64,000 bases of DNA from Watersipora subatra (taxonomy: Eukaryota; Bryozoa; Gymnolaemata; Cheilostomatida; Watersiporidae). The DNA is taken from the NCBI RefSeq assembly GCF_963576615.1, contig NC_088711.1, forward strand, positions 15,547,869-15,611,868, given 5' to 3'. A program made the position numbers and the translations under genes. The notes under the pieces were generated by a model that saw only the letters and a program-made list of their open reading frames with translations, was not told where the DNA came from and did no database searches. Shown piece after piece: positions 14,271 to 61,086 of this stretch (the stretch's first letter is position 1; every line of letters begins with the position of its first letter).

Positions 14271-14275
14271 ATAGT

Positions 14276-14513
14276 TATCGTGTTTTGTATATATTAGTTT
14301 AGTTAGAATTATTGTCCAAGTAGCATTTATTTTAGTCCAGGATACAAGAGAAACAACCCGTCTGTTTTTTTAGTAAGCCAAAAACCAAGAATGCCGGATG
14401 TGAGTAATGAACAAGTATATGCAATCTATACAGGAAATACCTCACTGAGCATGTGCATGTCATCACCATGGTAACAAGTAAATATATAAGTTTGTAAACT
14501 AAAAACTGTTACA
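14276..14513 (-). repeat. 3' LTR of the Ty3/gypsy element
   Basis: A 238-bp terminal repeat that, read on the minus strand, begins TGTAACAGTTTTTAG and ends CACGATA. It is nearly identical to 18866-19103. Confidence 0.9.
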
Positions 14514-17600: not shown

Positions 17601-17891
17601 GATCTCTTTGTTACCGTACCCAGTTAGCTTAGTATTGGTTCTAGTAACTTTCTTACCTCCTAGTTTAGTGAAGAGGGAAATGGCCATAGTACTAACTTGG
17701 GCACCAGTATCGACCTTTATTCTCACTTCATGATCTAAAATGTTTACTGTCAGTAGCCACTTGTTCTCATGAAAGACACCATTAGTTTTGACATCAGCCA
17801 TATCCAGTGTGTGCACGTTGAACGTCATGTCATCATCTGAGCTAACGTCACCATCACCCGCTTGTAGAAATGACACTCTGAGTTGTAGCAT
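14625..17891 (-). CDS. pol: pol region of the Ty3/gypsy element (protease, RT, RNase H, integrase)
   Basis: The order on the minus strand is: aspartic protease (VDTGAQVSTM), reverse transcriptase (TTDVKSSFYQIPL, then YVDDVVIYA), RNase H (ETDHLPLIGLM region), the integrase zinc finger (H...H...CQSCQAC), the DDE core (VGVDLF, then DNGPQFSSDEF) and a C-terminal tail. This is the Metaviridae gene order. Pol starts in a frame that overlaps the end of gag, as in family members that use programmed frameshifting. It is a fossil with about one apparent break. Confidence 0.9.
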
Positions 17892-18735
17892 TACTCTTCT
17901 TCAGACCAGTACACTTTTTTTTTAAATGCCCTCGTAAGTGACAACCGTTACATGTCTTATTATAAGCAGGGCATCTACCTTTGACATGATCATAGCCACA
18001 GAATGAACAATCTGTGATCATGTGATTAGCTGCTGCATTATTCTGGCTTTGCGGTGTATAGTTTCTAGGCTTATATGGATACGAGCCTACTGGTTGTACT
18101 GAACGAACACCATCTAGTTCAGCCTTTTGGTTCCTTGCGATTACTTCCTTAGTACGCATTTGCTGCTTTATCTGCTCAAACGTTATGTCTGCACGTAACT
18201 GTAGCTCACGACTCAACTCCTTATCCTTCATACCTGCCAAAAGTCGAGTGCGTAACATATCCTGTCGGTGTCTATCATCCCAATTGCTACATTTCACAGC
18301 CAGTTCATGCACGTTCCTTATGAATTCCTCATTACTCTCATCAGGAAGTTGAACTCGGGAACCCAGCAGCACTGCGTAATGCAAGTGATTATCACAAGGA
18401 GTGAAGTAATTATTCAAAGCTTCCACAGTTCTATCAAACAACGTACAATCTGCGTCCTCAGCTGCAATACCGGCATCTGGATTAGCCACACGGGGAGGGC
18501 GCACAGTCAGCTGACCATATATACTCTCCGCCTCCTCGCCCATACAGTACAGCAGCATGTCTACCTGACGCTGAGCATTCCTTTCATTCAGTCCAGAAGC
18601 ACTGCGATATCTCAAAAATCTCCTCTTCCATTCCGGCCAGCTCTGCGGTGCAGAAAAATCCATCTCTTTCGGAGCAGACACCTTGAAGTCACCCATAATG
18701 TTGTTGAATAAGACACCAAACCAGACTAACACCAA
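17854..18735 (-). CDS. gag: gag of the Ty3/gypsy element
   Basis: A single 293-residue frame on the minus strand. The N-terminal part reads MDFSAPQSWPEWKRRFLRYR, typical of retroelement gag in this lineage. The middle has the capsid-like helical pattern (LPDESNEEFIRNVHEL). Near the C terminus are two zinc-knuckle-like cysteine clusters (CSFCGYDHVKGRC and CNGCHLRGHLKKKC). It overlaps the start of pol by 38 bases in another frame. Confidence 0.88.
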   Translation of the reverse strand: MVLVWFGVLFNNIMGDFKVSAPKEMDFSAPQSWPEWKRRFLRYRSASGLNERNAQRQVDMLLYCMGEEAESIYGQLTVRPPRVANPDAGIAAEDADCTLFDRTVEALNNYFTPCDNHLHYAVLLGSRVQLPDESNEEFIRNVHELAVKCSNWDDRHRQDMLRTRLLAGMKDKELSRELQLRADITFEQIKQQMRTKEVIARNQKAELDGVRSVQPVGSYPYKPRNYTPQSQNNAAANHMITDCSFCGYDHVKGRCPAYNKTCNGCHLRGHLKKKCTGLKKSNATTQSVISTSG

Positions 18736-18865
18736 AAGTCAGTCACAATTCAGCACAAACACGCTGAAAAACAACGGGCCTATTCAAACTCCAACAATCT
18801 CACTTCAAGTAGTATTCAGTCCAGCTATACATCCAACAAAGCAATGTTCGTCGCCTACGACGCCA

Positions 18866-19103
18866 TATCGTGTTTTATATATATTAGTTTAGTTAGAATT
18901 ATTGTCCAAGTAGCATTTATTTTAGTCCATGATACAAGAGAAACAACCCGTCTGTTTTTTTAGTAAGCCAAAAACCAAGAATGCCGGATGTGAGTAATGA
19001 ACAAGTATATGCAATCTATACAGGAAATACCTCACTGAGCATGTGTATGTCATCACCATGGTAACAAGTAAATATATAAGTTTGTAAACTAAAAACTGTT
19101 ACA
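18866..19103 (-). repeat. 5' LTR of the Ty3/gypsy element
   Basis: A 238-bp repeat, matching 14276-14513 except at about 3 bases. It is the promoter-side LTR because gag and pol run on the minus strand. Confidence 0.9.
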
Positions 19104-19447: not shown

Positions 19448-22400
19448 ATTATGAGTTTATGATCCTCGTCCTGTCGTCCAGTAAACTTTATTACAAGATG
19501 ACAGAGAACGAATCACAAACAACAACTGAACTGTTGCTTTGTTTTGATGTCAGCAAGCTGAGTCGGGTGTCACAGTTTCTGTTGTCCAGCACTGTTGTGT
19601 TAGCATGTTTCCTTGTATATGGATATTTTTTGGTATGTCAGCTTCTATTACAGTTTTGAAAAAACATCATTTAAAAATGATAAATTGTTATTTGCCGAGA
19701 TCGTTTGTAAACACAATAGCTAGACTAATCGAAGTTCAACAATCTTTCTTTTCTATCAACTTCTTGAATTATTAGTATTAGTAAAGCATTTAACTTTTCG
19801 TTTATCTCTCACAAAAAATCCAACTAATTGTTATAAACAGTAGTAAAATATGTTTGTTAGTTTGAAGATTGGATGAAAGTTGAGTACAAAATGCATGCGA
19901 GTGAAAGGTATCTATATTGTACGAGAATTTATTTGTTAGGAGTTGTTGTTCCGCCTGGAAGGAATGAAAGATCACAGCTGGTATCTGACCATGATTCAGT
20001 TTCTGCAATATGTAATTTTTGGACTATTCGAGAGGTCTGCAATGGGTTACAGCAATAAACAACGAAGGTAGGTTACAGCCTAGCCAGTGGTATTCTGTGT
20101 ACCTAAAATTTCTATATTCCATCCAGTATTCTCTTTGACAGCAGGTTCTTAGATCAATTTTTATGCTTTCGCTAATCATCTAATCAGAGTTCTGTGGTTT
20201 GAGCGCTTTGCTCAACCTTTTGACTTGGTCCAACCAAGTTTCATATCTGTTCGAAATGTTTCCAGCGGTGTGCATTTCATTTTAGCAATTTATTTATTAT
20301 AAAATGTATAAATCTGCTTTACTAATTCTATAATTGATATTTTGCTGCATCTTAAAATCTCTCATTTCTATACATGTGTTCTTTGATGGAGTCTATATTT
20401 CAGCTGTATGCTTGCCATAGAAGCACATCTGTTACGTAGATAGCATTTCAGTGCAGTCTTTTACGAATTTCGTTGCAATACACAACACGCTGTAGAAATT
20501 CAGAGAGTATACATGTTATAAACATGTCAGGTGTATGGATTATGCTTACTTGGTAACTGCACACAGCTTAAGTATGCGCTGTAGATGTACTCACATATAT
20601 GCTAAGTGTAACCTTATTATATATACACACGTTTTGTAAGAATACGCTTCATACATGTTGTAGAGCCCCTCTGAGTATATATATGCTATTGGCAGCTTTA
20701 ACAGTTGCTACAATTGGCTTTTCCAACATGTCTGTTGGCTACCTCAACTATCCAACTCAAGTCATTTTCAAGTGTTGTAAGCTGATTCCAGTGCTGATTG
20801 GTGGAATTGTCATACAAGGTAGATGCGCTAGTTTATATCATGTTATATAGATGTTGAAGGGGTAGTAATAGGACTTGAGCAGATCTGATAAAGGTAGGCA
20901 AGTGGCATATACATGATACCCTTAGTAGCAATGGTACCCATAGTAGCAATGGTACCCATAGTAACAATAATACCCATAGTAGCAATGATACCCATAGTAG
21001 CAATAGGAACCATAGTAACAATGATACCCATAGTAGCGATGATACCCATAGTAGCAATGGTACCCATAGTAGCAATGATACCCATAGTAGCAATGATACC
21101 CATAGTAGCAATGATACCCATAGTAGCAATGGTACCCATAGTAGCGATGATACCCATAGTAGCGATGATACCCATAGTAGCGATGATACCCATAGTAGCG
21201 ATGATACCCATAGTAGCGATGATACCCATAGTAGCGATGATACCCATAGTAGCAATGGTACCCATAGTAGCAATGATACCCATAGTAGCAATCATACCCA
21301 TAGTAGCGATGGTACCCATAGTAGCGATGATACCCATAGTAGCGATGGTACCCATAGTAGCAATCATACCCATAGTAGCAATGATACCCATAGTAGCAAT
21401 GGTACCCATAGTAGCAATGGTACCCATAGTAGCAATGATACCCATAGTAGCAATGATATGCAGAATGAGCCAAGTAGTCTAAATACATTCACAAATAGAG
21501 CCAGTCAGTTAAGTTCAATAAATGAGTATTATTAGTTATATGTTAGTGTGTGTTTTTAAGAGCCATTATAAGAAGATTTCTGAAAATTCAGGCCACAAAA
21601 ACCTAGCATATCAGCTGATATTGGGTTGAATAAGTTTATATGGTTCATAAACTGAATGTTTGATTTAATTGCTATTTAAAGATAGCCACCTTTGCATTCA
21701 CTGTCGTTTGACTAGCAGTGCATGGGCATGGACTAAAGATAGCCACCTTTGCATTCACTGTCGTTTGACTAGCAGTGCATGGGCATGGACTAAAGATAGC
21801 CACCTTTGCATTCACTGTCGTTTGACTAGCAGTGCATGGGCATGGACTAAAGATAGCCACCTTTGCATTCACTGTCGTTTGACTAGCAGTGCATGGGCAT
21901 GGACTAAAGATAGCCACCTTTGCATTCACTGTCGTTTGACTAGCAGTGCATGGGCATGGACTAAAGATAGCCACCTTTGCATTCACTGTCGTTTGACTAG
22001 CAGTGCGTGGGCATGGACTAAAGATAGCCACCTTTGCATTCACTGTCGTTTGACTAGCAGTGCATGGACATGGACTAAAGATAGCCACCTTTGCATTCAC
22101 TGTCGTTTGACTAGCAGTGCATTGGCATGGACTAAATTACCTTAAGAGCCATATGTAGATGTTTGAAAGTTTGGTCTATACTAGTATTAGTATATGAGTT
22201 CTAATAGTAGTAGTAGTACTATTAATAGTAGGAGTAATAGTACTAGTGGCATTAGCAGGAGTAGTGACTTGTAGGGAGACAGATTTGCTGCCTGGGTTTT
22301 CACTTTTTCTGTTTAACCAAAGGGTAGATTATAGAGGGTTTAGTACCTTAATATGTGCATGTATATACATAAATATATATACAGCTACTCAAACTCTCAG

Positions 22401-25400
22401 GTCTCTGGTATGAGACCTGGGAGTTTGAGCACTCACCTGAAAATCTTGGCCGTTCCCATTAGCACACCTTTCTACAACTGGCTTGTGTTTATTCACATCG
22501 GTATTTGAGCAAGCCACATTTGATGTGCAGGTGTTATTGCACCCAATGCTCATATATATAAACCTGAGGGATGACACAGTGGGACATATCTACCCTTTAT
22601 GCAATCAGCGTTGTATGACCAATAAACATGCACACTTTAGTCCAATTATAATAAGCATTGGGAAATTAAAGATAAATGTGCACAAAATTTTAGTGGATTT
22701 TATCAGAAAGTATCAGTATTTTTCTATAATTTGCGATTGTATTTGATGTTTGAGGTGATCTGACTGCCAGGATGTTTTAAGATTAAAATCAACAAAACTT
22801 GATCTTGATTAGGATGCTTGGGTCAAGCGGAAGTGCAATTTTATGACGCCTTTAGTTGCAAGGAGACCAACAGAATAGAGACGCGTAATGTTGCGACTTG
22901 AATAGCCGATATCAACGATAGCAACTAGTGATGTCATTTCGCACGTATTTATCATCTGAGCATGTTAACCGTGATCAAGTTTTGGGGACTTCAATCTTGA
23001 AACATCCTGGCATTCATATTAAACATCAAAAACAATTATAAATAAAAGAAAAATTTCGATACTTTCTGATAAAATCTACTGAAGTTTTGTGTCTGTTCAT
23101 CTCTAATGCAAACTCAACAATCACCACACACCCCAAGGTTAACCAGCATTTATAAACCTAGAAATCAGCTGATGGTTTATCTCCCCTCGTTATTCGCTAT
23201 TGCTTGCACTTTATTTGTTTGTATATTGACGAGTTTCTAGTCTCTGCAAACAAAACCTCGGTTGAGGCATTGAAATTTCAACCAACTTTTTTATCTTCTC
23301 TGTAGGGAAGAAATATGGAGCTATCGACTTTCTTGCGTGCCTTTCTATGAGTGTTGGTCTCATACTGTTCACGCTCGCTGATAGTGAGGTTCAGCCCAAC
23401 TTTAATATTTACGGTAAGAGCATGGTTCCAATAAGCTGTTGCCAGCCGTGATTAGCTTGTCTGAAATATGCGTCAGCTGTTATAAGAACTGTGTCATATT
23501 GTTAGCCTAAAATGACACTTGTTTATTCAGACTAAACTGATAGAAGTTGAGGCATGGTTTTCACGTAGATTACAGATATGTACATGTAGTATTACAAGTG
23601 CAGTAGCCAAATGCTAAGTATTTATTGTAAGAAGTCACTTGGTCCTGCTCTGCTCTTTCATATTACATATCTATTGTCTTGTGTTATATTTATCAATGTG
23701 GTGAGGTGAAATTCATCTTATATTTTTCGGGCTTTTAATACTTTACAGTAGACGCCCCTATCACATAAATAATCCATTTCATTCTGTTATAGGGATTTTA
23801 CTTCTGTTTAGCAGTAAAATACATGTAAATTGCCTAATCCATTGTAACGCCTTTCCAAACTCACCTCTTTGGCCCTTCAAAAATGAAGAAAAATTTAATT
23901 TAATGAACTTTACTATTATTGGTTTGTATTGACAATTTTTTTTATTTCTATCACTTACGCTTGGTTTAGTCTACATGATTACAGCATTTTACATTAAGTC
24001 AAGGGGAGCGCATACCCTCAATGTCAATTTATATTCATTTTTTCACTATTTTCTCACAGAGGATCATGCTGAAAAAAAATTTTTATGATTGTCTAAAATA
24101 AAGTAAAAGTTTATATATATATAGTGTATTTCTTATGTGTCGTTTTCTCCGTGCTACAAGAGAGAAAACAATACTTTTAAATAAGGTGAATTTATTTGTT
24201 AAAGTATATATAACCGAAAATGCCGCGCTTTGTTGGCTTGTGCTACAAAAAATTTTGGACCAATAAAAAGATGTTGTTTTATGTTTGCTTTGTTAACAAC
24301 AATAATAGGCGATATTCAGTTGTGCAATTAGCCATAGTGATGATTGCTATGGAGTTAGGGCTGTAATAACATTAACAAAAGATATTTGAAAAAGCTAATT
24401 AATCATTGACAAGAGAATGTAACTCCTAAAAGAGTCATTATGAATTTTTAGAGGCTGAAAATGTTGGAAATATGAGACTGGTGTAAATCAGTTATTATAA
24501 TTTGTGTGAATTAGGTATGTCTAGGCAGAGAATTTGGGAACAGCAGCAAGTTTTTGTGACTAGTGACTCGTGGCTTACTATAGATGGGTTAAAAGTCACC
24601 GTGACCACAGTCTAAATTACTCTACTAGCAATCCTACACATCAGATCCTCTCAGAGTAGCCTGTCAATGGCTTTTATCAGTGAATCAATCAGTTACTGAC
24701 AAAATCCATTTGCTCTTTAATGTTACTCCAGAAAATTCTAAGATTTAACAGACTACAGACTGCATAATTTCACTGATTTGCTTCAGTATCTCTCATAGCA
24801 TATACGTATAACTGACTCATTGTATTTCTCAGGTGTGATAATCATATCTTGCGCTCTGTGTGCTGATGCAGTTATAGGAAATTTGCAAGAGAAAACACTG
24901 AAAGCTTGGACAGCATCCAATGCTGAAATGGTGAGCCTATGTATGTAATCATATCACATAAAATTCATGAACATTCTGTACATGCGATCAGTTACCTCCG
25001 ATTTCAGGTTACGGTTAGATAAGATTAGGAGTTAGAAATGTTTACTAACTGTCTTGTTTCTGTTTTTAGATATTATACTCATATGGGATTGGCTTCATAT
25101 ACATTCTAATAGGGCTCCTCCTCTTTCAACGGTTTGTTCCTGCCTTCATCTTTTTTTATCAGGTATTACATCATTTAGAACCTTCTGGAGCCTGTTAGAT
25201 AGTCATTACAGTTGCAATGGTTTCACTATGTTTATGGATATTCACTTGACATAGTTGGGTGCAGATCTACAAGTCATTTATAAGCGTAAGCGGACATTGC
25301 TTGGGATTTTTTAATTTTCAATGCAAGTTGCTGCTCTGACTTCACGACAACAATCCATGAACACGCTCATTGATGGTGATTATCCTCAGCACATGTGACA

Positions 25401-28400
25401 GCACATGTGACAGCACATGTTTGAGTTTCTAATCAGATAGATTGCTGCTCGTTTATATAAAAACACAAGTTTTAAGATTAACACTTGAGCCCGACATTGC
25501 GTGGGGTGAGTCTTTATTCTGTAACTCCTTACGGGTACCATTGCATTACTGTTTAGTAGATCTCTTGTTTAAAACTTAGAGTGCAAGTCATTTCCTTTTA
25601 CTACGGGAACTTTTGTCAGGTTTTCCGCCATGTATTTATTATCGATTATTTATAGCACCCTCTAGAGACCTACGGATATGGAGTAATCTTCTCTTTTTCT
25701 GGATATATAGGAGTAAATGCTGTACTCTCTCAGGTGAAACTATTTGGAGCCCTGTCAGCAGTTACAGGTCAGTAAGAGTATATACAAGTTCTCCAAACAT
25801 GGCGGTAAACTTATAGCAGATACTTATCTTGATATATAAAGTAGTTTCTAATATATAGCAACCAAAATTTCCTAAAATGTTAGTTTTATAAATAAAAAAC
25901 ATAAAAATCTGGTAGAAAGTGGAAAAAGCATAAAATTAAGTTAATTTAAGCTATATCTGGTAGAATTTGTAGCTCATTTCTATTACCTACTCTACCACCA
26001 AACCTGTGCGTTGCCAAAGCTGCTCTTCCATTCAGGCGCCTCTCTAAGGTAAACTAACAACAAAAACTTCTTTTGACTAATTATTACGTTTTTTAATTCA
26101 GTTTTGTAAGTAAAAATTAAAAATCTGGTAGAATTTGGAAAAAGCATAAAAATGAATCAATTTTAGCTCCATCTAGCGGGAGTTCTAGAACATTGCTATC
26201 GCTCACACTACCAAAACCTACTCTAGCTACCAATCAAGCGTCTCTAAGGTAAATCTTTACCATATTAAGAGTTGGGTCTGTCTGAAGCTACAGTTAAAGG
26301 TTGATAATTGAAGATTCCTCATACAGGATTTGAACCCAAGACATTCAGTTTAATAGGCAAACACTTAAACCACTGCACCAATCAACCACCTTCTTCCATT
26401 GCCGAATAGTTGTACGCCTTCCTACTCAAAATAGCAGTGTAGATAATTACTCTCAGCACTTCATTGGTAAACCTGACGATCTTTCATTGCATACGCGACT
26501 GCCAGGGTACTAGTTTATCTTTTGACTGATTATTATGTTATTAATTTAGTTTGCAATTATTATCTATGTTTTGACATTTGGTTTTTGCATCATTTTATAT
26601 AGGCTTATACATTAGTTTTTTTTTGCCCTAGAAGAAGTTGAATAGAATAAAATTTATTTTTAAAAGATTATTTTTGTCAGCGTGTGATCATTCTGACACT
26701 GATTTTGAGTGACAAATCATTTTGGCACTCGAAAATGACACTGTGAGCATTTTCACACTCTTTAGCACTTGGTGCTAAACATATTAGCACCAAAAAACTG
26801 CAGGAACTGCATTTTGGTGTTAAAATGTTCAGACCATAATGGTGTGTAGCATTCCTAGTATGTTCAAGTTGTACAAGTAGGTGTCAGATTGTGGTACTCA
26901 TCTACGTGGTCAACTGCCCTTTTATTTCTTTACAGTCACAACCTTTTATTTCTTTACAGTGACAACCTTTTATTTCTTTACAGTGACATCCTTTTATTTC
27001 TTTACAGTGACAACCTTTTATTTCTTTACAGTGACATCCTTTTGTTTCTTCACAGTGACAACATTTTATTTATTTACAGTGACAATCTTTTATTTCTTTA
27101 CAGTGGCAACCTTTTATTTCTTTACAGTGACAACCTTTCATTTCTTTACAGTGACAACCTTTTATGTCTTTACAGTGACATCCTTTTATTTCTTTATAGT
27201 GACAACCTTTTATTTCTTTACAGTGACAACCTTTAGGAAGATGATAACCATTATTCTGTCTTTTATCTTATTTTCCAAACCTTTTACCATCAGGTGAGCT
27301 AATTGAACTTTCCTATCTAACGTTGTTCTTAGAATTTAATATCTGGGGTTTTCACAGAAAAACACATAATTTTTTCCGTATTCTATAGTTTTCTAGTCTA
27401 AGACTCTGTAAAACTATTTGTATCTCTAATCTACATCTGCTCCGCTTGTCATACACCTGCTATGCCTGTCACACATATTTGTTAAATTTAGCTTGTTAAA
27501 TGCTAAGTACCCTAGGACACTTATGTATTCGCCTCATCTAACTTTCGCGTTTTCGCGGAGACATCCTCTCGTGAAAATTTCATGCGCAAAACTAATCTAT
27601 CATAACGCACGAGCGAAAACGCGAAATTAAATAGCTTTGTTCATTGATAGACTATCAATGATAGTCCAAGAAACAAATGGTAGCAAGCGATCAAATTGCA
27701 TTATCGACCTTGCCCACACCATTCTACCTGCGGTTCACAATTACAAACTAGTCCCAAATTGAAATTTTTTTTTATCGGTGAACTGAACCTGAGGAATCTA
27801 ATTATTTTTGTTCCACAGCATTTATTTTCACATCATTATATTTTCCGCACACATCAGAGTTGCGAAATTAAGTTGCTGCGAAATTTTACTCTGTATGCTA
27901 CTCACAAAACTAAATACTAGCGAAATATAAGTGTCCTAGGGTATACAGCTGTTCATCAGCCTGTCTTGCTAATTAGCGTTCAGTTTGGCCCATGCATGTT
28001 TATTCTAGTTTGTGTAAATGGTAAATGATTAGTCACATGACAACTAAATAAATGCTTTCAAAGTACGCATTTCAAATTGCCAAGAAATGGTCACATGGAT
28101 CAGATGTGAAATCGAAATATATAATGTGGTTTTGTTATTGATTTCACCTTATGCATTTCAAATTATGAATAACTTCATTGTTTGGGACAAAAAGGGTGAA
28201 TATTGGATTTGTCACTGATAAGTTGTACAATCAAACTTGAGTTTTAGTTGCACTTTGCAGAACTTAGCATGACCGAACTCATTCAATCATAAACTTTTAG
28301 GCTATGATCACTTCGGCTGCTTTTCCCAATTGGAGCCTCTGACCTTTGACAGTTTTTGGTTTGGTTGTCATGCACGCGTGCCTTTGAGCTAGACTGGCCA

Positions 28401-29150
28401 CGGGATTATGTGTTACACTTAAAATACTACAGCCTAGTTGACCATGCAGCGTGCCTAACTAGGTATAAAACTAAGTTGTCTTTGCATCCCTTTTATTAAC
28501 CTGCCATAGGTGTCATATATATTATTAACCTGCCGTACGTTTCATATATATTATTAACCTGCCGCAGGTTTCCTATATATTATTAACCTGCCGTGGGTGT
28601 CATATATATTATTAACCTGCCGTAGGTGTCATATACGGTATGTGACAGATGTCATATATATATTCATTGGGATGTGAGTTCAATTGTGAGTAGTGACGCA
28701 TCATGAAGTTTAACATTGCTTGGCCTGAATACTTTCTATGGTGCTTTAAACAGTGTTTGCTGTTTAACACTGACAAAGTCTCTATTACACCGAGGTTTGG
28801 GTAGACTGTGTACAACATTGCAACATATCTCAAGGAAACAAAGTTTCATTTGCTGTTGCCAGCGACAACGATTATGGTGTGAGAGAACAACTCTGCTGTG
28901 GAGAAAAATGGTCTGACACCTCTCTGGCACCCATTAGATCTAGTCCGCGTACATGAACAGTTATTCTATGTTATGTTCTTTCTATTGTAGATACGTGTGG
29001 TCAGGGCTAATAGTGCTCGCTGGAATATACCTGAACCTTTATAGTAAAAATAAATTATATGTAAATGGCAAGATAGCGAGGCTTTTCAATAGTATACATC
29101 CCAAGTCACGGTCATTGGTCATAGAGCCAACTCATGATAACATTGTTTAG
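19448..29150 (+). CDS. SLC35B3: PAPS transporter, SLC35B3 family, tandem copy 1
   Basis: Nine coding exons: 19448-19632 (start ATG 19498), 19940-20067, 20664-20818, 23306-23413, 24833-24930, 25070-25162, 25656-25767, 27224-27293, 28991-29150. All junctions are GT-AG and in phase, giving about 352 residues. The protein is the multi-pass Golgi antiporter that imports 3'-phosphoadenosine 5'-phosphosulfate for sulfation. Diagnostic blocks are LEGMKDHSWYLTMIQF, GYLNYPTQVIFKCCKLIPV, ADSEVQPNFN, SCALCADAVIGN, HPLETYGYG, VTTFRKM, LSFILFSKPFT and YVWSGLIVLAGIYLNLYSKN. SLC35B2 lacks these blocks. ATG 19498 was preferred to 19459 because it aligns with the start of copy 2 (MTENESQ against MLESGTQ). An upstream non-coding exon is likely, since an acceptor (tttgcag) precedes 19448. 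AATAAA at 29422 is a possible poly(A) signal. Exon 8 is preceded by an array of duplicate acceptors, so the actual protein length may vary. Confidence 0.92.
20916..21458. repeat. 18-bp minisatellite in intron 3 of SLC35B3 copy 1
   Basis: About 30 copies of atacccatagtagcaatg, with gtaccc, gcgatg and caatca variants. The flanks (ggtaggcaagtggcatata and atgcagaatgag) match intron 3 of copy 2 near 36185-36240, where only about one unit is present. Open frames on both strands are by-products of the 18-bp period. Confidence 0.92.
21677..22134. repeat. 57-bp minisatellite in intron 3 of SLC35B3 copy 1
   Basis: Eight nearly identical copies of a 57-bp unit (taaagatagccacctttgca ... agtgcatgggcatggac), with only a few single-base differences, so expansion or homogenisation is recent. 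A single diverged unit occurs in intron 3 of copy 2 near 37656-37725 (taaagataaccacattg ... taaactaaattac). Confidence 0.92.
25895..26255. repeat. Diverged direct duplication in intron 7 of copy 1
   Basis: Two related segments (about 25895-26056 and 26098-26255) share aaaatctggtagaa, ggaaaaagcataaaa and the closing tctctaaggtaaa, with many differences. This is probably an old tandem duplication. Confidence 0.55.
26300..26400 (-). mobile_element. tRNA-derived SINE head, intron 7 of copy 1
   Basis: Read on the minus strand: ggttgattggtgcagtggtt (A-box region) and, about 35 bases later, cttgggttcaaatcctgta (B-box/T-arm). The spacing and motifs are tRNA-like but the stems are imperfect, so this is a SINE or tRNA pseudogene rather than a working tRNA. 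Confidence 0.6.
26921..27223 (+). repeat. 24-bp array of duplicated 3' splice sites before exon 8 of copy 1
   Basis: The unit is ccttttatttctttacag followed by tgacaa. It contains a pyrimidine tract, the AG acceptor and the first bases of exon 8 (TGACAACCTTT). Thirteen AGs lie at exact 24-bp spacing from 26934/26935 to 27222/27223; the last is the standard acceptor of exon 8. All thirteen keep the AG (one reads tatag). The exon 8 frame is open through every unit, encoding VTTFYFFT repeats. Copy 2 has a single acceptor at the same place (42244). Confidence 0.93.
27510..27941. mobile_element. MITE with TA target duplication, intron 8 of copy 1
   Basis: The terminal inverted repeats ccctaggacacttatgtatt and its inverse (aatataagtgtcctaggg) bound 432 bp. 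TA flanks both ends (27508-27509 and 27942-27943), as in Tc1/mariner-type MITEs. The interior is rich in gcgaaa/cgcgaa motifs. No transposase is encoded. Confidence 0.8.
28491..28640. repeat. 29-bp minisatellite, intron 8 of copy 1
   Basis: About five copies of ttaacctgccgtaggtgtca followed by tatatatta. Confidence 0.85.
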
Positions 29151-32768: not shown

Positions 32769-35200
32769 ATGTTAGAAAGTGGCACACAAGACTCTCGCAT
32801 TCTACTATGCCTCGATATCAGCAGACTCAACCGAGTGTCACAATTTCTGCTATCAACAGCTCTTGTGCTAGCCTCCTTTCTCATATATGGATATATTCTG
32901 GTACGAATTACACCCTGTTACTTAGTCTTTTTATAAATCTCAAATTTCTGGATCGCTTTTAGCTCGTAGTTTAAACTCTACACAAGACAAGGAAATCACT
33001 TTTTCGATTTAATCTGTTCATATAAAAATTTTTCAGTTTTTGAGTAGTAATTGAAGGTGCTGTTCTATACATGTTAAGATGAGTTCATAGGTATTACAAA
33101 GTAATTAACGTATTAAACTTTTTCAATTGATTGGAAAAACCATTGTCTAAGATACTTTTAATCTTTTTGAATGCTGGTTAAGATTTTAACTCCACCTGTT
33201 GTCGACCATAATGAAAAGCATTATTTCGTACTACTTTAATCAGCCAATGGTAGCATGTGTATTATCTTTATCAGCCAAGGGTATCATGTGTATTATTTTT
33301 ATTAGCCAATGGTATCAGGTGTGTTACCTTTATCAGCCAATAGTATCATGTATAAATATTTAGTGTACCAGTTTAATAACAGTATAAACTTTTTTGTTTC
33401 ATCTTGACAAAGTCTTTATAAGAAAACAAATAAAATAACATGTAATATATAAGAAACTAGATGAATTTCCAGCGCCGCACAAGTAATAAAATAATTACCC
33501 AATGAATTTGAGAAATATACCTGGCAAGCTAGTGAAATTTTTACTATAATAATAGCCGTGTCAGAAGCTAATTTAATAAACGTTACATCGTGCGTACTGA
33601 TCAAGCGTACTAGTTGATAGCCCATGAGTTAAGCGTGAGTAATGAATGTCATCACAATCATTCATCGCTACGGTTAGTTGGATGATGTAGTTTAAAGGAT
33701 TGGTTTCCTGGTCTGCAGATCTAGAAGTTCTGAGCTCAAATTCTCTGCCAAGTGGATTTTTTGTTCCTAAAACCTTTTTCACTATAACTGGATTGACGAT
33801 TGACAAACACTGAGATTTATGTATACAAATCTTAAAACTGAGAGCTTTGCGAAACTGGCCTTAGCTCACAGGGAGAAAGTTATTACCGCTATACTTTTAT
33901 GTTATAAGGAAATGACATTCCATCTAGAAGGAATGAAGGAATATAGCTGGTATTTTACAATGCTGGAATTCTTACAGTTCTCCATATTCGGATTGGGTGA
34001 AAGAGTTGTTAGCCATCGTTGCGGCCTCTTGAAACACAAGTATGAACATATATTCGCGGGTACATTACATATGCAAGTATTTTTATCTCTGCGTGTATGT
34101 ATGACATGTTGTATGAGTACATATTCAAATAAGATGTATAGGTGATAAGTAAATACATCCTTGTTAAAGGTTTAAAAGAAGCTTGACCATAATCAAGCGT
34201 TTCAGAGACTCAATCCAGTAGTCTTAGCTTTGGCAGAGGTTCAAACCATGCTATGGTCTATCTTTTTAGTAATGATCTAATACGGTAGTAGGCGTTTCAT
34301 GCTTGATCACAGTTGCTCTTATAAACCATTCCTTAGATGTTCACTTAGGCAGAAGTGCGAGTGCGCAAGTCTAAGTCAAGCTGCAGACAAACTTGCTGCG
34401 TAGGTAAATATTGTTTCCTTTGGTGTCCATTTAGGCAGAAGTGCGAGTGTGCAAGTCTAAGCCAAGCTAAATTCAAACTTGCTGCATACATGAAGGTAGA
34501 TATTGTATGGTGGACTACTAATATACAAGTTTAGAATATACCTGTAACAGTAGTACACTATGATAGTACACATGTGATATACACCATTACAATGTATTAA
34601 ATATATGTTGTAGAGCCCCAATGAGTATATATATGCTGCTGGCAGCTTTAACAGTTGCTACGATTGGCCTTTCCAACATGTCTGTTGGCTACCTCAACTA
34701 TCCAACTCAAGTCATTTTCAAGTGCTGTAAGCTGATTCCAGTGCTGATTGGTGGAATTGTCATACAAGGTAGATGCACTACCTTTACCTCTTGAAACTTT
34801 GCTTTGTTTAAATATAGATATGTTGAAGTGGTGGTGGTGGTAACAGTAGTAGAAGTAGTACTACTAGTAGGAGCATTAGTACTATAGTAGTAGTATTAGA
34901 TATAGGAGTAGAACTACTAGTGATACTGCTAGTAATATTGATCGTAGTATTGGTAGTAGTATTGGCAGTAGTATTGGTAGTAGTATTGGTAGTAGTAGTG
35001 TTAGTAGTAATAGTAGTGGTAGTAGTATGGGTAGTAGTATTGGCAGTAGTAGTGGTAGTAGTAGTAGTATTGGTAGTAGTATTGGTAGTAGTAATAGTAG
35101 TGGTAGTAGTAATAGTAGTGGTAGTAGTATTGGCAGTAGTATTGGTAGTAGTAGTGTTAGTAGTAATAGTAGTGGTAGTAGTATGGGTAGTAGTATTGGC

Positions 35201-35255
<55 letters not shown>

Positions 35256-35643
35256 TTGGTAGTAGTATTGGTAGTAGTAATAGTAGTGGTAGTAGTAATA
35301 GTAGTGGTAGTAGTATTGGCAGTAGTATTGGCAGTAGTAGTGGTAGTAGTAGTGGTAGTAGTATTAGTAGCAGTGGTAGTAGTATTGGTAGTAGTAGTGG
35401 TAGTAGTAGTAGTGGTAGTATTGGTAGTAGCATCAGTAATAGTATTGGTAGTAGTATTGGTAGTAGTATTGGTAGTAGTATTGGTAGTAGTATTGTTAGT
35501 AGTATTGGTAGTAGTATTGGTAGTAGTATTGGTAGTAGTATTGTTAGTAGTATTGGTAGTAGTATTGGCAGTAGTAGTGGTAGTAGTAGTGGTAGTAGTA
35601 TTGGCAGTAGTATTGGTAGTAGTAGTGGTTGCAACTTGTAGAA

Positions 35644-35707
<64 letters not shown>

Positions 35708-36417
35708 CCCTATTTAGCTGTGGAGTGTTTATTAAGCTGGCATGAATTTACCAACAAGTTGATGTTTATCACTTTGAGTTTGTTGATTTGGCTTTGAAAT
35801 TTATTAACAGCTTAGTGTGTCACTGTATTTGCGGCTAACATTGGTCACCTATACATCGTTATTTGTTATTTTTACATTATTGCCTGAGGAAGCAACTTTG
35901 CTTTTTATGGCTATTTTTGTTAAACAGTTCTTCTTTCCTGACCCTTACAAACAAGCTACCGGTATAACTATAAAGTTTATAAATAGTTATTTTAGCTGCT
36001 TATTTAAGTCTGTCATAGAAATTGCAACTTGTTGGAACAGAAAGAATTACATGTGCTAGCTCACAGTATGAGATAAACCTTTGAGTTGCTAGTTTGGAGT
36101 GCAATAAGGACTTGTTGGTTTTTGTTTGTCGATTGCTACCTAATTGAGCATATATTAAAAATTGTTGAGCAGATCTGATTAAGGTAGGCGAGTGGCATGT
36201 ACAGCATACTCATAGTAATAATAATATTATGCAAAATGAACAGAAAAAATCCAAATATATTACAACTAGAGCCAGTCATTTGAGTGGGATAATTAAGTAC
36301 CATTAGTTATCTGTTAGAGTGCGTGCGCTTTAATGTTTATGTGCCATATGTAGATCTCTGAAAATTTGGCCTATACTACTACTAGTATACAAGTACTAAT
36401 AGTAGTAGTACTATTAA

Positions 36418-36479
<62 letters not shown>

Positions 36480-39400
36480 CTATTAATAGTAGTAGCAGTA
36501 GTAGTAGTATTACTAGCAAGTAACAGCAGTAGTAGTGATAGTAGCAACTTGTAGCAGGGAGACAGATTTTGTTGCTTTGGTTTTCACTTTTTCTGTCTAA
36601 CTAAAGGGCAGGCTATAGAGAATTTATTACCTTAAAGGTTGACTTGCAACAAGATTCACATTACAGTTATTTGATATGAAAAGATTCACCATGTCTTACT
36701 CTGTTGTGTTGTTGGTGCAAAATATGTGGAAAAGTGATTACAAGCTCTTAAAAGCTCAAAAACGAACAGAAAATCGCAGCCACACGAGACCGCTGTAGTT
36801 TGGATTCTCCTTCCAAAACTGCTCAAATGTGACGCAGTTGTGAGAGATGGTTTCTGTTTAAACTTTCATGCAACCTTATTCGTTGAAATATTTTCACAAA
36901 TATACTTCACGCATTTAATAAAACCATGTCTATTGTTCGTACGCGTCTGTTTTATCGTCATCGTAATGCTGTCACTTTTAGCAGTGATATCTTATAACTT
37001 ACCGTAAAAATTCGTTTAATTTTTCAGCCTCAGCTTGAAGGAGTACATATCATTGTCTGATAATCATGACGAGCTTGTTGGTCACTTGTGATAATCGAAA
37101 AGTGCTGCAGAAATTATTTGCGAAGTATTGGGTCGCATGATCTGATTACGACTTGCCAATTAGACCAAACCGAAACAAAACTGTAAAGTAGCGAGCATCT
37201 ATATTTGATACGGGGTCTTCGGTGAAACCCGAATTGTTTGTCATAAACTAGTGCTACGATAAGTTTTATATTGAGCTTTTGATTGGCCTTTCAATTCACG
37301 TGAGAACATCACATGACAAGACAATAACCAAATTTCATGACCACGTCATCGAAATAAAGTGATTTCAATCTACGGCGGCTTTTCGTTTTTGAGCTTTTAA
37401 GAGCTTGTAATCATATTTCCACAGTTTTGGCACCTACAACACAACAGGGTAAGACGTGGTGAATCTTTTGATAAATATACATCTCTATGCATCTGTATAA
37501 TATGTAGATCTATATATGTATGTACATTTACATACATATTTATGTAAGTAGATTCATCTCTCATTCATTTCGCCGCCTCAACCAAAAATATCAGCTCATG
37601 TCATTGAATAAACTTTCATGGTTTATGTGCTTTGTACTCCTCTTTTAATTGTTATTTAAAGATAACCACATTGTTTGTATCTACAATATCTTGATTATCA
37701 ATGTACGTGTATAAACTAAATTACTTCAAGACTTGTTCTACTTCCCATTTGTAATGATTAGATTCTCTCTTTTGAAGGGAAGAAATATGGAATAATCGAC
37801 TTTCTAGCGAGGTTCACCATGAGCGTTAGTCTCATACTTTTTACACTCACTGATAGCGAGATTCAGCCCAACTTTAATATCTATGGTAAGAGAGGTCTCA
37901 CTGGGCACCCATGCTAATCCTTTTTTCATTTATTTATAGATATGGCTAGATTATAGCAAACCAGGGTTATGCTATATAAAGCAGGTTGCTATAGAAAAGC
38001 ATGATTCAACTACGTGAATTAGTTGCAGGATACCGGTGCTTGATAAAGGTATATTACAAATGTTGATCATATGCATTACATAGCAAGGGTTCATGATACA
38101 ATGGTATATTACAAATGTTGATCATATGCATTACATAGCAAGGGTTCATGATACAATGATATATTACAAATGTTGATCATATGCATTACATAGCAAGGGT
38201 TCATGATACAATGTAGGTTCAAGGCATATGACATGAGTTTTCAACATGTACAAATGACAAGAATTCATAATATTGTTCTGAGATAGATAGATTCATGAGA
38301 AGCATCATCCAAGGTTTTGTTTGAATTCTAACAAAAGTATTAGATTGGAAAGGTGATAGCTTGTAACAGTCAGATTAGTAGTTGCTGAAATATTTTAAAC
38401 AGGGTGCTAAACATATCTTAAAAACGTCAAACAAAGCCCAAAATTAAACACTTGCTGTATTTCCAGAATGTGGATTCAAACCTTGATATCATGTTTTTTG
38501 ACTACCGCTTTCATTTTACAAGTTTCTTATCATACATTTTTATGTAATACACGTTTGTGAAAGGACCAGTTTACGGATTTGTGTAGGCAAGAACAAATGG
38601 AAAGCATCCTTGCCCACTATAGGTATCGTGATCATGTCTGGTGCATCTTTCATGTGTTACACGAGTAGTGATCATGACTGGTGCACCTTTCACATGTTAT
38701 AGGTATAGTGATAATGTCTGGTGTTCCTTTCACATGTTACAGGTATAGTGATCATGTCTGGTGCACCTCTCATATGTTACAGGTATAGTGATCATGTCTG
38801 GTGCACCTTTCACATATTATAGGTATAGTGATCATGTCTGGTGCATCTTTCACATGTTGCAGGTGTAGTGATCATATCTGGTGCTCTTTGTGCTGATGCA
38901 GCTGTCGGAAATGTGACGGAAAAAACTCTCAATGACCATAAAGCAACTAATTCTGAGCTGGTAAGACCAGCAAATTTGTGGCTACATGGAACTCCTAACA
39001 AATAGTTTTTCTCTTTTATAGAATGTTACTCATGCTTGTGAATACTTCCTGGATTAGTGAATGTTTTACTATCCCTACCATAAGCATATCTTACCATATA
39101 TTTATTGCTAAAATCTAAACCTAAACTTAATTTAAATATTTACTCTTGTTTACCAGCCCCTCCCTCCATCTTACTGGAATTTTTAATCCGTTTATCTACT
39201 ATACAAATAATCATTCTTTTCGTTTTTAAAGAACAACCTTGAGTTTCTGTAGCCCAGCCATACTGTTGGGGTTACCAATTTTATCAATAGGCTTCTAGAC
39301 CAATCACAACCTGCTTAAAGAGCTAACAAGCCAATCACAGTTTAATTTTGAGATTATGAGACCAATCAGTCTGGTTGGAACATTGCAAGACCAATCACGG

Positions 39401-42400
39401 CTTGATTAGGCATTTTTAGACCAATCAGATTTAAAATCATCCTATTTCATATGACGAGTTTTTCTTAACTTTTTAGAAACCATAAAATGTGATGGTTTTC
39501 AGTGTCAAAATATAAAAATGAATCAATTTATATCATGGTACTTTGTATTTCATCTGGGAAGCAATGGTATAAGCACAAGCAAAGATTTTCGCAATTTTAA
39601 TAACAACGAAACTATCTCTATCTACTCGCACAATTTGCGCTTAAATTTTTACACGTCTTAACATGCTCTGTTTGAAAATGAGCTATATGAATATATTTAG
39701 CTATTCTGTAACCAGATTAACACAAAATAATCTGATGCATTTTATTAACCCATTTAGCACCAGCATAGATAATATCGGTAGAAAAGTATTCCGTTTTTCC
39801 AATGGAAAGTTTCACTCATAAATCAGGTTTGCAATAGAATTTGCACTTTTTGGTGGATATTAATAATCTTGGCATGGTTTCAAAGAGCAGAATATAAAGG
39901 TTTGAATGATACAGTATGTAGTTTCATGTTTATTACAAGCTGCAAAAAGCCTAGGAGACCAGAAGACGTTAGACTTTTATTCAATACTTATACGCTGGCA
40001 GTCTCATGAGCCGTGAGAGATAATCATATGTAATAAGTATGTGCCCAATTATTCCAGGAAGCTTCAAGGTAGTCCAGTGGTGTAGTTGGTAGTGCGCTTG
40101 GCTGCAAGCCAAATATCTGAGTTCACGTCTCATGAGATGCATATTTTTCCAACCTCTTAGTGTGGCTTCAGACAAACGGACGGACACGGCTCTTATTATA
40201 GTAAAGATCGGGTAAATAGGCTAGCACAGTGATTCATAGCAATTTAGGTTGGCATGGACTGGGTTAAATATATACGCTTACTATCCCTTACAAGGGTACA
40301 TTAAATATACTAAAAAGAACTGTGTAAATCTCAGCAATGAAAATGTGTGCTAATTGCAGATAACATCTATACAAGTTGATTACAATATTCATACAATATT
40401 AAACATAGGAATTTCTTACATTTTTTTGTCACATGCTCTAATTAAATTTTATTGTAAATGTTAGAATATGTAATGCAGAACATACAAGTATGTATACTAG
40501 ATTGTGTTGGATTCAACATACTTATTCTCAATGAAGGTTTTTACAGCTAAAGATGTCGTAATATTGTCTTCTGCAGTGGTTTTCTGGTCTGAACTATAAT
40601 ACCGATGTGTCCTTCAGACAAACCATTTGTGTCACAAAAGCTGCAAATATTAAGTCTATAGACTTATCTTTTAAGGAAAAATAGTAAAAGATTAATTTTG
40701 CTTCTGAGCATTCTTGCAGAATCACTACATAGAGAATTAGGTACTTGCCACTAGTGCATTGTAGAAGTTAGTTGTACAAAAAGAATAAACGTTTCTCACT
40801 TAGGAAAAAAGGTTTTAGATGTGTGAGCTTTTATAACTTTTGTGTAGATCAGTTAATAGCAACAACCCTGTGTAATTATTTCCTATCATGCCTTTATATA
40901 TAGAACTTGCCAACATTTAATAATGAGAAGATAACTACCATAACAACACAAATACTTCAAAACTGTGTAGTCAGCATAGCCAAGACTACTTCACAAAGTT
41001 GTCCTCATATGTATTTAAAGCATTACAACTAATCAAAGTATGCATCTCCAGCCATTCTTTCTTTTTATTGCACAGTATTATTGTGTTAGGTTAATAATGG
41101 GGAGACAACTACCAAATAATAATAATACAATAATAAAATAATTTTTCAAGAGCCCTCATTATACAATTTAATTTTATGGTGTGGTCTCTGAAAAAATGCT
41201 CCTTTAATTATTTATGCTTTATAATTATAATATAATTCTCTTGAAGAATGCTGCTGATTCTGATCTTGTTTAAATTGTTTTTTAATTAGGCTGATTTGAA
41301 AAAAGATTTTGACTCACAGCACTTTTGATTTTAATTGATTAATTTTTTTAAACAACACATCAAACTTTTTTTTCAGATTTCTTTATTTGTGCTCAGACAG
41401 GTTAGATAAATTGACTGAATTTTTAGAAGCTCGTTGAAGCAATCTTGTAATGCACTTGAGTCTTTTTGCTAAAGTTACTAACTTGTACAACTTATAAGCA
41501 ATGGGTTGGCAGCATCCAAAAGATTTTCAGTGTTATTTTTACTATATTTTCAGATACTCTTTTCATACAGCATTGGATTTGTGTACATAATGTTTGGACT
41601 ACTGCTATCAGCCCAGCTTGCTCCAGGATTCATGTTCTTCCAGCAGGTAATTTAGGCTATTTGACTTGCACTAGTGTTATATATTTGAAATATTCTATAT
41701 GATCACTGAAGTTTTTTAAAAAAACATAAAACTTACGATGTATGTTTTTCAACAGTCTGTTTCAATTTACAGCATCCCTTGGAGACGTATGGTTATGGAG
41801 CTGTGTTCGCTATCACGGGATATGTGGGTCTAAATGCTATACTTTTCCAAATAAAACATTTTGGTGTACTTGCAGCTGTAACAGGTACGTACGCCATGTT
41901 GGGTTATTATATCTATGGGTAGAAAAATGTTTTGTTGAGATGAGCCTAGACAGTTCTTTAATTATAATATTATAAGCAATTGCCTCAGTGCCAAGTGCGG
42001 CAATATCTCCCATAATCAATTATGTAAAAAGCCATCATCTAAACAATTAAAAACCATTTCAAAGACAGATTAGCATAAGCTCCTAAAGGTGGTGTAATTC
42101 TATAATTTGTTTATTTAAACAAATACATATGAAATAGAACAAGCAGAGGTGTTGTCTTGTTGATTTAGTGTGTTTGTTTGCTAAGTATGACACATTGATA
42201 AAATTTATCTAGTTGGGTTGATAAATCTCACATGTCTTTTGCAGTGACAACCTTCAGAAAGATGCTGACTATAATTCTGTCATTCATTCTATTCTCAAAG
42301 CCCTTCACCTTTCGGTAAGGTTAATGAATCTCTCAAACAGCTTTATTTGCATTTCAATTTTGTCATATTAAGCAGTGTTTTAAATAATCTAAAATTTCAA

Positions 42401-43391
42401 CTGTTTCTGGTTGAGCTTTAGTGTTGAGAACAAAAATAGAATACTATTAATTTAAATGAATGTTAATAATTGTCAACAGATTTTCAATAAGGATTTAAAA
42501 CTGCCTAGTTTGAATATTTTCAACTGACCACAACCCGATTTTCTCTTCTGCTGACATGTTTGAAGCAGGCGCATCAGCATGCATGCACATAATTCATTTT
42601 CTCATCCACTAAAAAACAGAAAAAAACTATAAAAATTCCAAAATGGTAAAATTTTTTTACAGCATTCAAAGTTACCAGCTTTCTTACATCAAAAACTATC
42701 TTCACCATGAGAGCAATAGAGTTATTCACAGTCTATCATAATATCAGTTTTAACAGTCTCTTAGGAATTAGAAGACATCGTAATGAAAGTAAGTCATGAG
42801 CAATGCATGGCTAAAATCCATGTATCTATTCAGTCCTACTCAACGGGTACTGAAAAGTATATTTCACTTGTTTCTACTTATACAGTAATCCTAATATACT
42901 GTGGTAGATATATGGGTCACTATTGTCCCCACACCCAACCAGCTCTTATGTGCAACTTTATGATCTTCAGCAGTATTGCTGACAAGGGACTAGTAGTTAC
43001 AAAAGACTCTATTGCCATTTTTTGCATTGAGTTGCTTTTTGCAACGAAAGTGTAAACTTATCACACCGTTAGCTTTCATACAAGTGTCGTAGATTATGAC
43101 TCATTTTACAGAAATAGAGTCTTCTTTGTAAGATGCCTTAATTTTACACTTTTTAATTTTATTGCTAAATTTTTTTCAAGTGTTATTAGCATAAGATAGC
43201 TTTAAAAGGAGACCCATTGTTGTAGATACATTTGGTCCGGTCTGATTGTCCTTGGTGGAATGCTTCTCAACTTTTATAGTAAGAAGAAAGATATTATAAA
43301 CAATAAATTTTCAGCTTTATACAAGCAAATGTGCCAGAAGAAAGAAGCAGCATTGTTAGATCAGCAAAATGACTCCATTGACCACATTTAG
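32769..43391 (+). CDS. SLC35B3: PAPS transporter, SLC35B3 family, tandem copy 2
   Basis: Nine coding exons: 32769-32900, 33909-34039, 34614-34768, 37778-37885, 38863-38960, 41554-41646, 41773-41884, 42245-42314, 43226-43391. They have the same phases as copy 1 and predict about 354 residues. The function should be the same Golgi PAPS import. Diagnostic blocks are LEGMKEYSWYFTMLEF, GYLNYPTQVIFKCCKLIPV, IQPNFNIYG, SGALCADAAVGN, HPLETYGYG, VTTFRKMLTIILSFILFSK and YIWSGLIVLGG. The C-terminal tail differs completely from copy 1 (ending NDSIDHI). Exon 3 is almost identical to copy 1 (7 differences in 155 bases), whereas exon 4 has about 20 in 108 and the other exons more. An acceptor before the ATG (aaaatttag) suggests an upstream non-coding exon. 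No stop or frame break was seen, so both copies look functional. Confidence 0.92.
33238..33352. repeat. About 32-bp imperfect tandem repeat, intron 1 of copy 2
   Basis: Four imperfect copies of atcagccaatggtatcatgt followed by gtattatcttt. Confidence 0.75.
33664..33810 (+). mobile_element. tRNA-derived SINE-like segment, intron 1 of copy 2
   Basis: An A-box-like tagtttaaaggattgg is followed by ggtctgcagatc (resembling a tRNA-Cys anticodon arm, loop ctgcaga) and a B-box-like gagctcaaattctc. The segment continues into a pyrimidine-rich tail. Stem pairing is imperfect. Confidence 0.5.
34331..34510. repeat. Two-copy direct repeat of about 95-100 bp, intron 2 of copy 2
   Basis: Both copies contain ttaggcagaagtgcgagtg and tgcaagtctaag, then acttgctgc. 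They differ at several bases. Confidence 0.8.
34880..35640. repeat. TAG/ATTGG-type microsatellite block, intron 3 of copy 2
   Basis: Compound array of gtagtagtattg, gtagtagtagtg and gtagtaatagta units, all multiples of three. It contains an internal block duplication (about 34990-35080 and 35160-35290). Long polyvaline-, polyserine- or polyleucine-like frames here are artefacts. Confidence 0.9.
35646..35702. repeat. (TA)n microsatellite
   Basis: About 28 uninterrupted TA dinucleotides directly after the TAG block. This is a self-complementary, cruciform-prone tract. Confidence 0.95.
36397..36545. repeat. (TAG)n microsatellite in intron 3 of copy 2
   Basis: About 25 TAG units with ctattaatag interruptions. 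Intron 3 of copy 1 has a short counterpart at about 22204-22250 (taatagtagtagtagtacta), with matching flanks (gggagacagatt, ttttcactttttctgt). Confidence 0.92.
36634..37475. mobile_element. Foldback element with long inverted arms, intron 3 of copy 2
   Basis: The left arm (36634 to about 36765: aggttgacttgcaa, caccatgtcttactctgttg, ttacaagctcttaaaagctc) faces its inverse at about 37380-37475 (gagcttttaagagcttgta, caacacaacagggtaagac). The right arm ends about 45 bases short of the full terminus. The interior is non-coding. The family also occurs at 9472-9727. Confidence 0.65.
38048..38213. repeat. 55-bp tandem repeat, three copies, intron 4 of copy 2
   Basis: Three almost identical copies of ggtatattacaaatgttgat ... 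gcaagggttcatgatacaat. Confidence 0.9.
38621..38862 (+). repeat. 40-bp array of duplicated exon 5 acceptor, copy 2
   Basis: Units start at 38621, 38661, 38701, 38741, 38781, 38821 and 38861. The last is the genuine acceptor of exon 5. Each unit carries an acceptor-like AG followed by gtatagtgatcatgtctggt, which mirrors the exon 5 start GTGTAGTGATCATATCTGGT. The AG context is degraded in the second unit. The 40-bp period breaks frame, and the three-unit option (120 bases) reaches a stop. Confidence 0.9.
39290..39430. repeat. Decayed repeat with five accaatca-type motifs
   Basis: Five occurrences of (g)accaatca or gccaatca lie roughly 29-33 bases apart in intron 5 of copy 2, embedded in poorly conserved sequence. 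This is probably an old minisatellite. Confidence 0.55.
40062..40215. mobile_element. SINE/Helitron-like element with tRNA-Cys-like cassette, intron 5 of copy 2
   Basis: The plus strand has gtggtgtagttggtagtgcg (A-box region), cttggctgcaagccaaa (an anticodon arm with GCA, as in tRNA-Cys) and gagttcacgtctc (degenerate B box). It ends with gacaaacggacggacacgg and ctcttattatagtaaa, which is the inverse of the 5' ends of other copies. The 5' part is similar to 3210-3310. Confidence 0.5.
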
Positions 43392-56950: not shown

Positions 56951-57366
56951 CTAGAATATAATAAAAGGCAGGCAATAGAATCATATCCACAGTACCATAG
57001 TCATTAACTAATTAACTACTACTTTAGTTTACAACCATAAGTAAGGCCGATCAGCTTTAAAACTTCATACTTGAATGGTTGCGCTACGACGGAAATGAAC
57101 ATCATGTGAGATCGTAAAAACTCCAAAAACAACTTTTTTCAGCTGAGGTGATAGCCTAATCTCCACAAGGATGATTAATAAACCCCACTAATTAGCATGC
57201 CTTCCACCATTTAAAAACAATAACATTCATTAGAAATCTTTTTTTTATTGAGGTCAGAGGGCTATTTTTAACACAACCTAGCCATAATAATATTAGTTTA
57301 GCTTATAGTGCTTGGCTGACATCTTCTTGCAGCCCACTACAAAATAATGATGATACCTAGATGAGT

Positions 57367-60300: not shown

Positions 60301-61086
60301 ACTACACCATAGTAAAATATTACTACATCATAGTAAAATATTACTACACCATAGTAATATATTACTACACCATAGTAATATATTACTACACCATAGTAAT
60401 ATATTACTACACCATAGTAAAATATTACTACACCATAGTAAAATATTACTACACCATAGTAATATATTACTACATCATAGTAATATATTACTACACCATA
60501 GTAATATATTACTACACCATAGTAATATATTACTACACCATAGTAAAATATTACTACACCATAGTAAAATATTACTACACCATAGTAAAATATTACTACA
60601 CCATAGTAATATATTACTACATCATAGTAATATATTACTACACCATAGTAATATATTACTACACCATAGTAATATATTACTACACCATAGTAAAATATTA
60701 CTACACCATAGTAATATATTACTACACCATAGTAAAATATTACTACACCATAGTAAAATATTACCACGCCATAGCAAAATATTACCACATCATAGTAAAA
60801 TATTACTACACCATAGTAAAATATTACTACATCATGGCAAAATATTACTACATCATAGTAAAATATTACTACATCATAGTAAAATATTACTACATCATAG
60901 TAAAATATTACTACATCATAGTAAAATATTACTACATCATAGTAAAATATTACTACACCATAGTAAAATATTACTACACCATAGTAAAATATTACTACAT
61001 CATAGTAAAATATTACTACACCATAGTAAAATATTACTACATCATAGTAAAATATTACCACGCCATAGCAAAATATTACTACATTA
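57367..61086. repeat. Satellite of 21-bp monomers with higher-order structure
   Basis: About 177 copies of a 21-bp monomer (atagtaaaatattactacac plus c), with variants tagtaatatattac, ctacatcatag, ccacaccatag and ccacgccatagc. The landmark accacgccatagcaaaatat recurs at 58621, 59713 and 60763, that is 1092 and 1050 bases apart (52 and 50 monomers), with the same variant order between. Many monomers hold the palindrome agtaatatattact. Very long open frames on both strands (1266 and 1241 codons) arise only because 21 is a multiple of three and the unit lacks stops in those frames. Confidence 0.95.

Follow-up and report, generated by a model that had tools for sequence, protein, structure and literature searches.

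A 24-bp minisatellite repeats the predicted exon 8 acceptor of a bryozoan SLC35B3-like gene in frame

Two SLC35B3-like genes in the window

The window, i.e., the whole stretch of 64,000 nucleotides of Watersipora subatra DNA that was analyzed, contains two neighboring genes whose products belong to the UAA transporter family, with PF08449 scores of 260.8 bits for copy 1 and 238.7 bits for copy 2 against a curated cutoff of 26.2 (Table 1). Following the earlier note and sequence motifs, we provisionally term both SLC35B3-like. Exon limits were placed manually with both copies in view, which makes the agreement between their exon structures partly built in, and all predicted introns are GT-AG. 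The predicted end of exon 7 in copy 1 agrees with the donor that had been placed at 25767 in the earlier note.

The two predicted proteins are identical at 231 of 348 aligned residues (dN 0.232, dS 1.41, NG86). Exon 3 (20664-20818 in copy 1, 34614-34768 in copy 2) is 95.5% identical between the copies, and the other exons of equal length (4 to 8) are 61-82% identical; either recent gene conversion or strong constraint in exon 3 would account for its high identity. When the entire assembly (783.7 Mb, 239 contigs) was searched with the protein, neither a third gene copy nor a retrocopy that could record the spliced junction emerged, as all 16 matches (20 candidates scored) fell inside the two genes of the window. 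For another gene family, PF00153, a profile search gave 108 exon matches in the genome.

Table 1. Positions of the predicted genes, exons, and repeated splice signals in the window
Feature	Position	Strand	Description
Copy 1, SLC35B3-like gene	19498..29150	+	PF08449; nine coding exons predicted; protein of 352 residues if the last AG is used
Exon 7, copy 1	25656..25767	+	predicted; donor after 25767; joins exon 8 within a codon
Stretch upstream of the array	26889..26917	+	holds CTCAT, branch-point-like, 36 nt before the first AG
24-bp unit, 13 copies	26918..27229	+	consensus CCTTTTATTTCTTTACAG followed by TGACAA; intron end (18 nt) and exon start (6 nt)
AG dinucleotides, 13	26934..27223	+	exact 24-base steps, 26934-26935 to 27222-27223
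Exon 8, copy 1	27224..27293	+	predicted, from the exon-adjacent AG; 70 nt, no multiple of 3
Copy 2, SLC35B3-like gene	32769..43391	+	PF08449; nine coding exons predicted; protein of 354 residues
Array across the acceptor of exon 5, copy 2	38621..38884	+	40-bp unit, 6.6 copies, 85% match (Tandem Repeats Finder)
Exon 5, copy 2	38863..38960	+	predicted; any other start in the array runs into an early stop
Exon 8, copy 2	42245..42314	+	start TGACAACCTT same as in copy 1; single acceptor, no array

Thirteen copies of the exon 8 acceptor

Across the boundary of intron 7 and exon 8 in copy 1 runs a tandem array whose 24-bp units each combine a pyrimidine tract with an AG and six bases of the exon. 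Tandem Repeats Finder reported it as one row (26918-27234, period 24, 13.2 copies, match 91%, indels 0%). The AG is intact in 13/13 units, the AGs starting at 26934 + 24k with k from 0 to 12, which confirms the earlier description of thirteen AGs at exact 24-base intervals before exon 8. The anatomy of the unit also supports the view that the acceptor was copied in tandem together with its tract and the first exon bases. The site context is AG/TG or AG/TC (the slash marking the boundary), and the first 6 to 10 bases of exon 8 (TGACAA CCTT) are echoed in the units. Beyond the array the exon runs on as CCTTTAGG; as CCTTT is common to the start of the unit and to the exon just past the array, it represents a plausible point of slippage. 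Among units 2 to 5 of the array (26918-27229), TGACAA alternates with TGACAT, which hints at a 48-bp doublet step in its growth. Exon 8 of copy 2 starts at the homologous base without an array, which shows that the exon-adjacent AG of copy 1 holds the ancestral position.

With at most three mismatches allowed, a 21-base core of the unit occurs 13 times in the window, versus a mean of 0.01 in 100 shuffles, and no further copy of the 24-bp unit was found elsewhere in the window with up to six mismatches. As expected, no related sequence was found in prokaryote genomes, viral contigs, or phages. Tandem arrays are error-prone, and this one might have been created or mis-sized during assembly. That is hardly credible here, given nine distinct unit types among the 13 units and a single full-length place in the genome (one assembly), inside a 67-Mb contig.

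An open frame and a neutral pattern of substitutions

With the remaining predicted exons held constant, every one of the 13 acceptors yields a coding sequence that stays in frame and has no stop but the terminal one. The protein would range from 352 to 448 residues depending on acceptor choice, and the proposal that any choice stays in frame and adds 8 residues per step, up to 96, therefore holds for all 13 coding sequences. The 96 extra residues (34 F, 30 T, 13 V, 10 Y, and no charge) amount to a translated pyrimidine tract, and the insert falls where copy 2 has none.

The array differs from its consensus by 13 substitutions in 312 cells. Read as coding sequence, 3 of these are synonymous, 10 are replacements, and 0 lead to a stop; the synonymous share (3/13) compares with 22-28% expected without selection, under which the chance of seeing no stop is 0.69-0.83. 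Random substitutions would miss both AG columns with a chance of 0.32 (0.38 for the 11 distinct variants), and indel-free arrays are common, 12 of the 17 array rows of the window being without indels. Neither splice-site constraint nor coding constraint is shown by these data, because the substitutions, the stop count, the unhit AGs, and the lack of indels are all chance-like. The copy 1 array as a whole looks neutral. The earlier statement that every AG is preserved amid variable neighbors holds to the letter (13/13 AGs, 11/24 variable columns), but the constraint that was suggested as a possible reason is unsupported for the AGs (P = 0.32) and likewise for the coding frame, the pattern being that expected without selection.

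Branch-point-like motifs within and upstream of the array

A UnAy motif is found 22 nt upstream of 11 of the 13 AGs, where it derives from the TGAC of exon origin in the preceding unit; for the second AG the motif is TCAC, and for the ninth it is lost. The strict form, yUnAy, was not found at 22 nt before the array AGs, the motif at that place being the looser UnAy. Since TGAC thereby provides a branch-point-like motif for these 11 AGs, most units appear to be complete 3′ splice-site modules. The remaining 15 predicted acceptors of both genes have their closest upstream AG at a distance of 14-47 nt, which is 24 nt or less in six cases, so that a module of 24 nt falls inside the local range. 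Few minisatellites resemble acceptors: the copy 1 array is one of only 2 among 58 array rows whose unit has at least 10 pyrimidines in the 12 positions before a YAG on either strand. The rows, with periods of 10-100 and at least four copies and with overlapping rows counted apart, were drawn from the window together with twenty samples of 10 kb each from the same chromosome.

The first AG has CTCAT at 36 nt in place of the 22-nt motif. This is the best branch-point-like site upstream; it precedes the array, in a stretch that we infer to be the pre-array branch-point region, and was passed over in the earlier note. The 46 nt preceding the first array AG are free of AG, the nearest upstream AG being at 48. 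The spliceosome is reported to prefer the AG that comes first downstream of its branch point (PMC7317903, PMC1431707), and by this rule CTCAT would favor the AG at 26935, which argues against use of the exon-adjacent one. If the branch point stayed at CTCAT, 26935 would be the main acceptor and the array would be coding, so that copy 1 would normally yield 448 residues or be a spare. The AG-free approach and the frame open across every unit are consistent with such use of the first AG, but it would add an insert that copy 2 lacks at the corresponding point, codon-level constraint is not seen, and the ancestral exon start is the exon-adjacent base. We regard it as improbable.

An out-of-frame acceptor array in the paralogue

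A second array, overlooked by the earlier note, straddles the acceptor of exon 5 in copy 2 and is a natural control for acceptor choice. It presents seven acceptor positions between 38622 and 38862, six with AG and one with AC. Six of the seven read AG/GT, so that each of these could also resemble a donor. As its 40-bp unit is no multiple of three, the array is out of frame: splicing to any of the six positions upstream of exon 5 (five of them AG) would place the first stop in copy 2 at residue 199-203. The reading frame of copy 2 is intact despite this array.

If copy 2 had been neutral over the divergence of its array (18/240), 3.2 stops would be expected and none would be found with a probability of 0.036, in a test that uses array divergence as a clock, assumes uniform substitutions, and ignores homogenization of the array. 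The same test on copy 1 is weak (1.9 stops expected, none with a probability of 0.15). The divergence of the copy 2 array may not be a measure of time, and copy 2 may not be expressed, which counts against the control. With these limits, the intact frame in the presence of upstream AGs that give stops indicates that an exon-adjacent acceptor apparently can win over its near-copies, and suggests that it can supply enough mRNA amid near-identical upstream copies. The two arrays together suggest that acceptor-straddling arrays arise in these genes irrespective of frame.

Use of the exon-adjacent acceptor as the preferred reading

The evidence on AG choice points both ways. The paralogue, with an out-of-frame array at exon 5 and an intact gene, argues for exon-adjacent use in copy 1, and we consider it somewhat more probable than its negation that a neutral minisatellite engulfed the exon 8 acceptor and that the exon-adjacent AG is dominant, perhaps with a minor in-frame ladder. 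A tandem duplication across the intron-exon boundary would have given rise to the minisatellite, and repeated slippage or unequal exchange would have brought it to 13 units. The choice of AG would be set by which module has its branch point and tract bound, the next AG then being taken. The exon-adjacent module (27222-27223), aided by the exon and its donor, would supply most of the mRNA, and hence the 352-residue protein, while upstream modules used at a low level would generate the minor ladder of in-frame proteins, with 8 more residues at each step.

A minisatellite that includes an acceptor needs no special cause at this locus, because tandem arrays cover 16.1% of the window, versus 4.8% across 200 kb sampled from this chromosome, and only 2 of the 32 junctions of both genes lie within arrays, versus 4.9 expected by bare coverage of 12 arrays picked by hand from the tandem-repeat list. 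An enrichment of arrays at splice sites was rejected for these two genes on the same figures.

Many of the 13 near-equal modules might instead be used substantially and stochastically, giving proteins with 0 to 12 extra octapeptides over a range set by allele length. All 13 frames are open, tract and AG are nearly identical across units, and the tandem array of UBC, whose splice sites are dual-specific, yields laddered RT-PCR products when studied in human cells (PMC10809524). Against such extensive use stand a would-be coding repeat without selection, a 96-residue uncharged insert within a membrane protein, and the array at exon 5 of copy 2, tolerated where comparable use would wreck the protein; we therefore hold it to be unlikely, though a serious contender. 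Slightly more doubtful still is the further reading of the locus as a dial, i.e., a polymorphic in-frame acceptor minisatellite whose 13 near-equivalent modules would produce a ladder of transporters in octapeptide steps, and whose length mutations would change the protein repertoire without a frameshift. If true, it would make the locus a natural laboratory for the spliceosomal choice of one among many equal acceptors.

Engineered duplications are the usual means of studying whether splicing settles on the first AG, on the one nearest to the exon, or on any of many equal modules. Copy 1 provides a natural experiment, with 13 near-identical in-frame acceptors paired with an out-of-frame acceptor array in the paralogue, in which scanning for the first AG, exon-adjacent use, and stochastic choice could be told apart. 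The locus also shows that genes can tolerate a tandem duplication spanning an acceptor, a point of relevance to the evolution of minisatellites and exon boundaries.

Comparison with known repeated splice sites

Splice-site-straddling minisatellites are already known for donors. In human ABCA7, a 25-bp minisatellite (VNTR) of intron 18 straddles a splice site, with the first, exon-adjacent GT as the canonical donor; length variation and splicing were measured, and retention of one unit was 2 ± 1% (PMC5954066). The copy 1 array is similar in straddling a splice site, but it concerns an acceptor and is in frame, whereas the ABCA7 array as described there concerns a donor and is out of frame. In the same source, skipping of ABCA7 exon 19 rises with VNTR length (PMC5954066). 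By analogy, the repeated tracts of copy 1 might trap splicing factors, so that exon 8 would be skipped and output lowered as the array lengthens; skipping would shift the frame, as the exon is 70 nt long. However, ABCA7 has its array at the donor, with the affected exon at the far end of that intron, and we think interference of this kind very improbable for copy 1.

In intron 7 of human F7, only the most upstream, exon-adjacent donor of 37-bp repeats is normally used (PMC6627357). Both donor precedents speak for use of the exon-adjacent AG in copy 1. The F7 units, variable in number, are near-identical and each resembles a functional splice site, as in copy 1, but they form a donor array and are out of frame. 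Similarly to both human arrays, the copy 1 unit includes a predicted functional site and abuts the exon, the acceptor of the last unit being homologous to that of exon 8 in copy 2. As the straddled site is an acceptor and not a donor, the array represents a variant of the ABCA7 and F7 kind, not a member in the narrow sense, and the donor-array precedents are no proof for acceptors.

The UBC array likewise has equally spaced repeated splice sites at a multiple of three, any choice being in frame; it differs in its 228-nt coding units, in which AGGT serves as both donor and acceptor (PMC10809524). The copy 1 units measure 24 nt, are mainly intronic, and carry AG/TG sites that lack the AGGT of UBC and would act as acceptors only. 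NAGNAG and other short tandem acceptors also change the protein by whole residues through alternative acceptors, but they typically comprise two sites 2-12 nt apart that share one branch point and tract (TassDB2; PMC2423196). The 13 sites of copy 1 are spaced 24 nt apart, farther than the 3 nt, or about 12 nt at most, of the NAGNAG type, and most have their own branch-point-like motif and tract.

In the literature searched, we found no acceptor-straddling minisatellite, in frame with 13 intact sites or otherwise; this is no proof of absence, and on that basis an in-frame acceptor-straddling array appears new. A 2007 study by Zhuo and colleagues, to judge by its title, concerns the origin of alternatively spliced introns from tandem arrays, and would resemble the present case in that duplication copies splice signals.

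Other arrays and elements in the window

An 18-bp array of 30 copies occupies 20913-21458 in intron 3 of copy 1, with a plus-strand frame open through it (20879-21532). It expanded after the gene duplication, since the homologous flanks in copy 2 (36165-36217 and 36206-36324) meet without an array. At 4827-5221, a 22-bp array with GTAATA-like donor motifs in its units adjoins an open frame on the minus strand (5204-5458) at the donor end of that frame. This array may straddle a donor, although another possible donor is found just before it; the pieces of this locus submitted to Pfam gave nothing above the cutoff.

The region 14628-18738 harbors retroelement open frames on the minus strand, with a protease-like motif recognized by eye. 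The element may be bounded by direct terminal repeats, to judge from similar peptides read near 14275-14471 and 18841-19061. Finally, a 21-bp array of 177 copies extends over 57366-61083, and one minus-strand frame (57360-61157) is open throughout.
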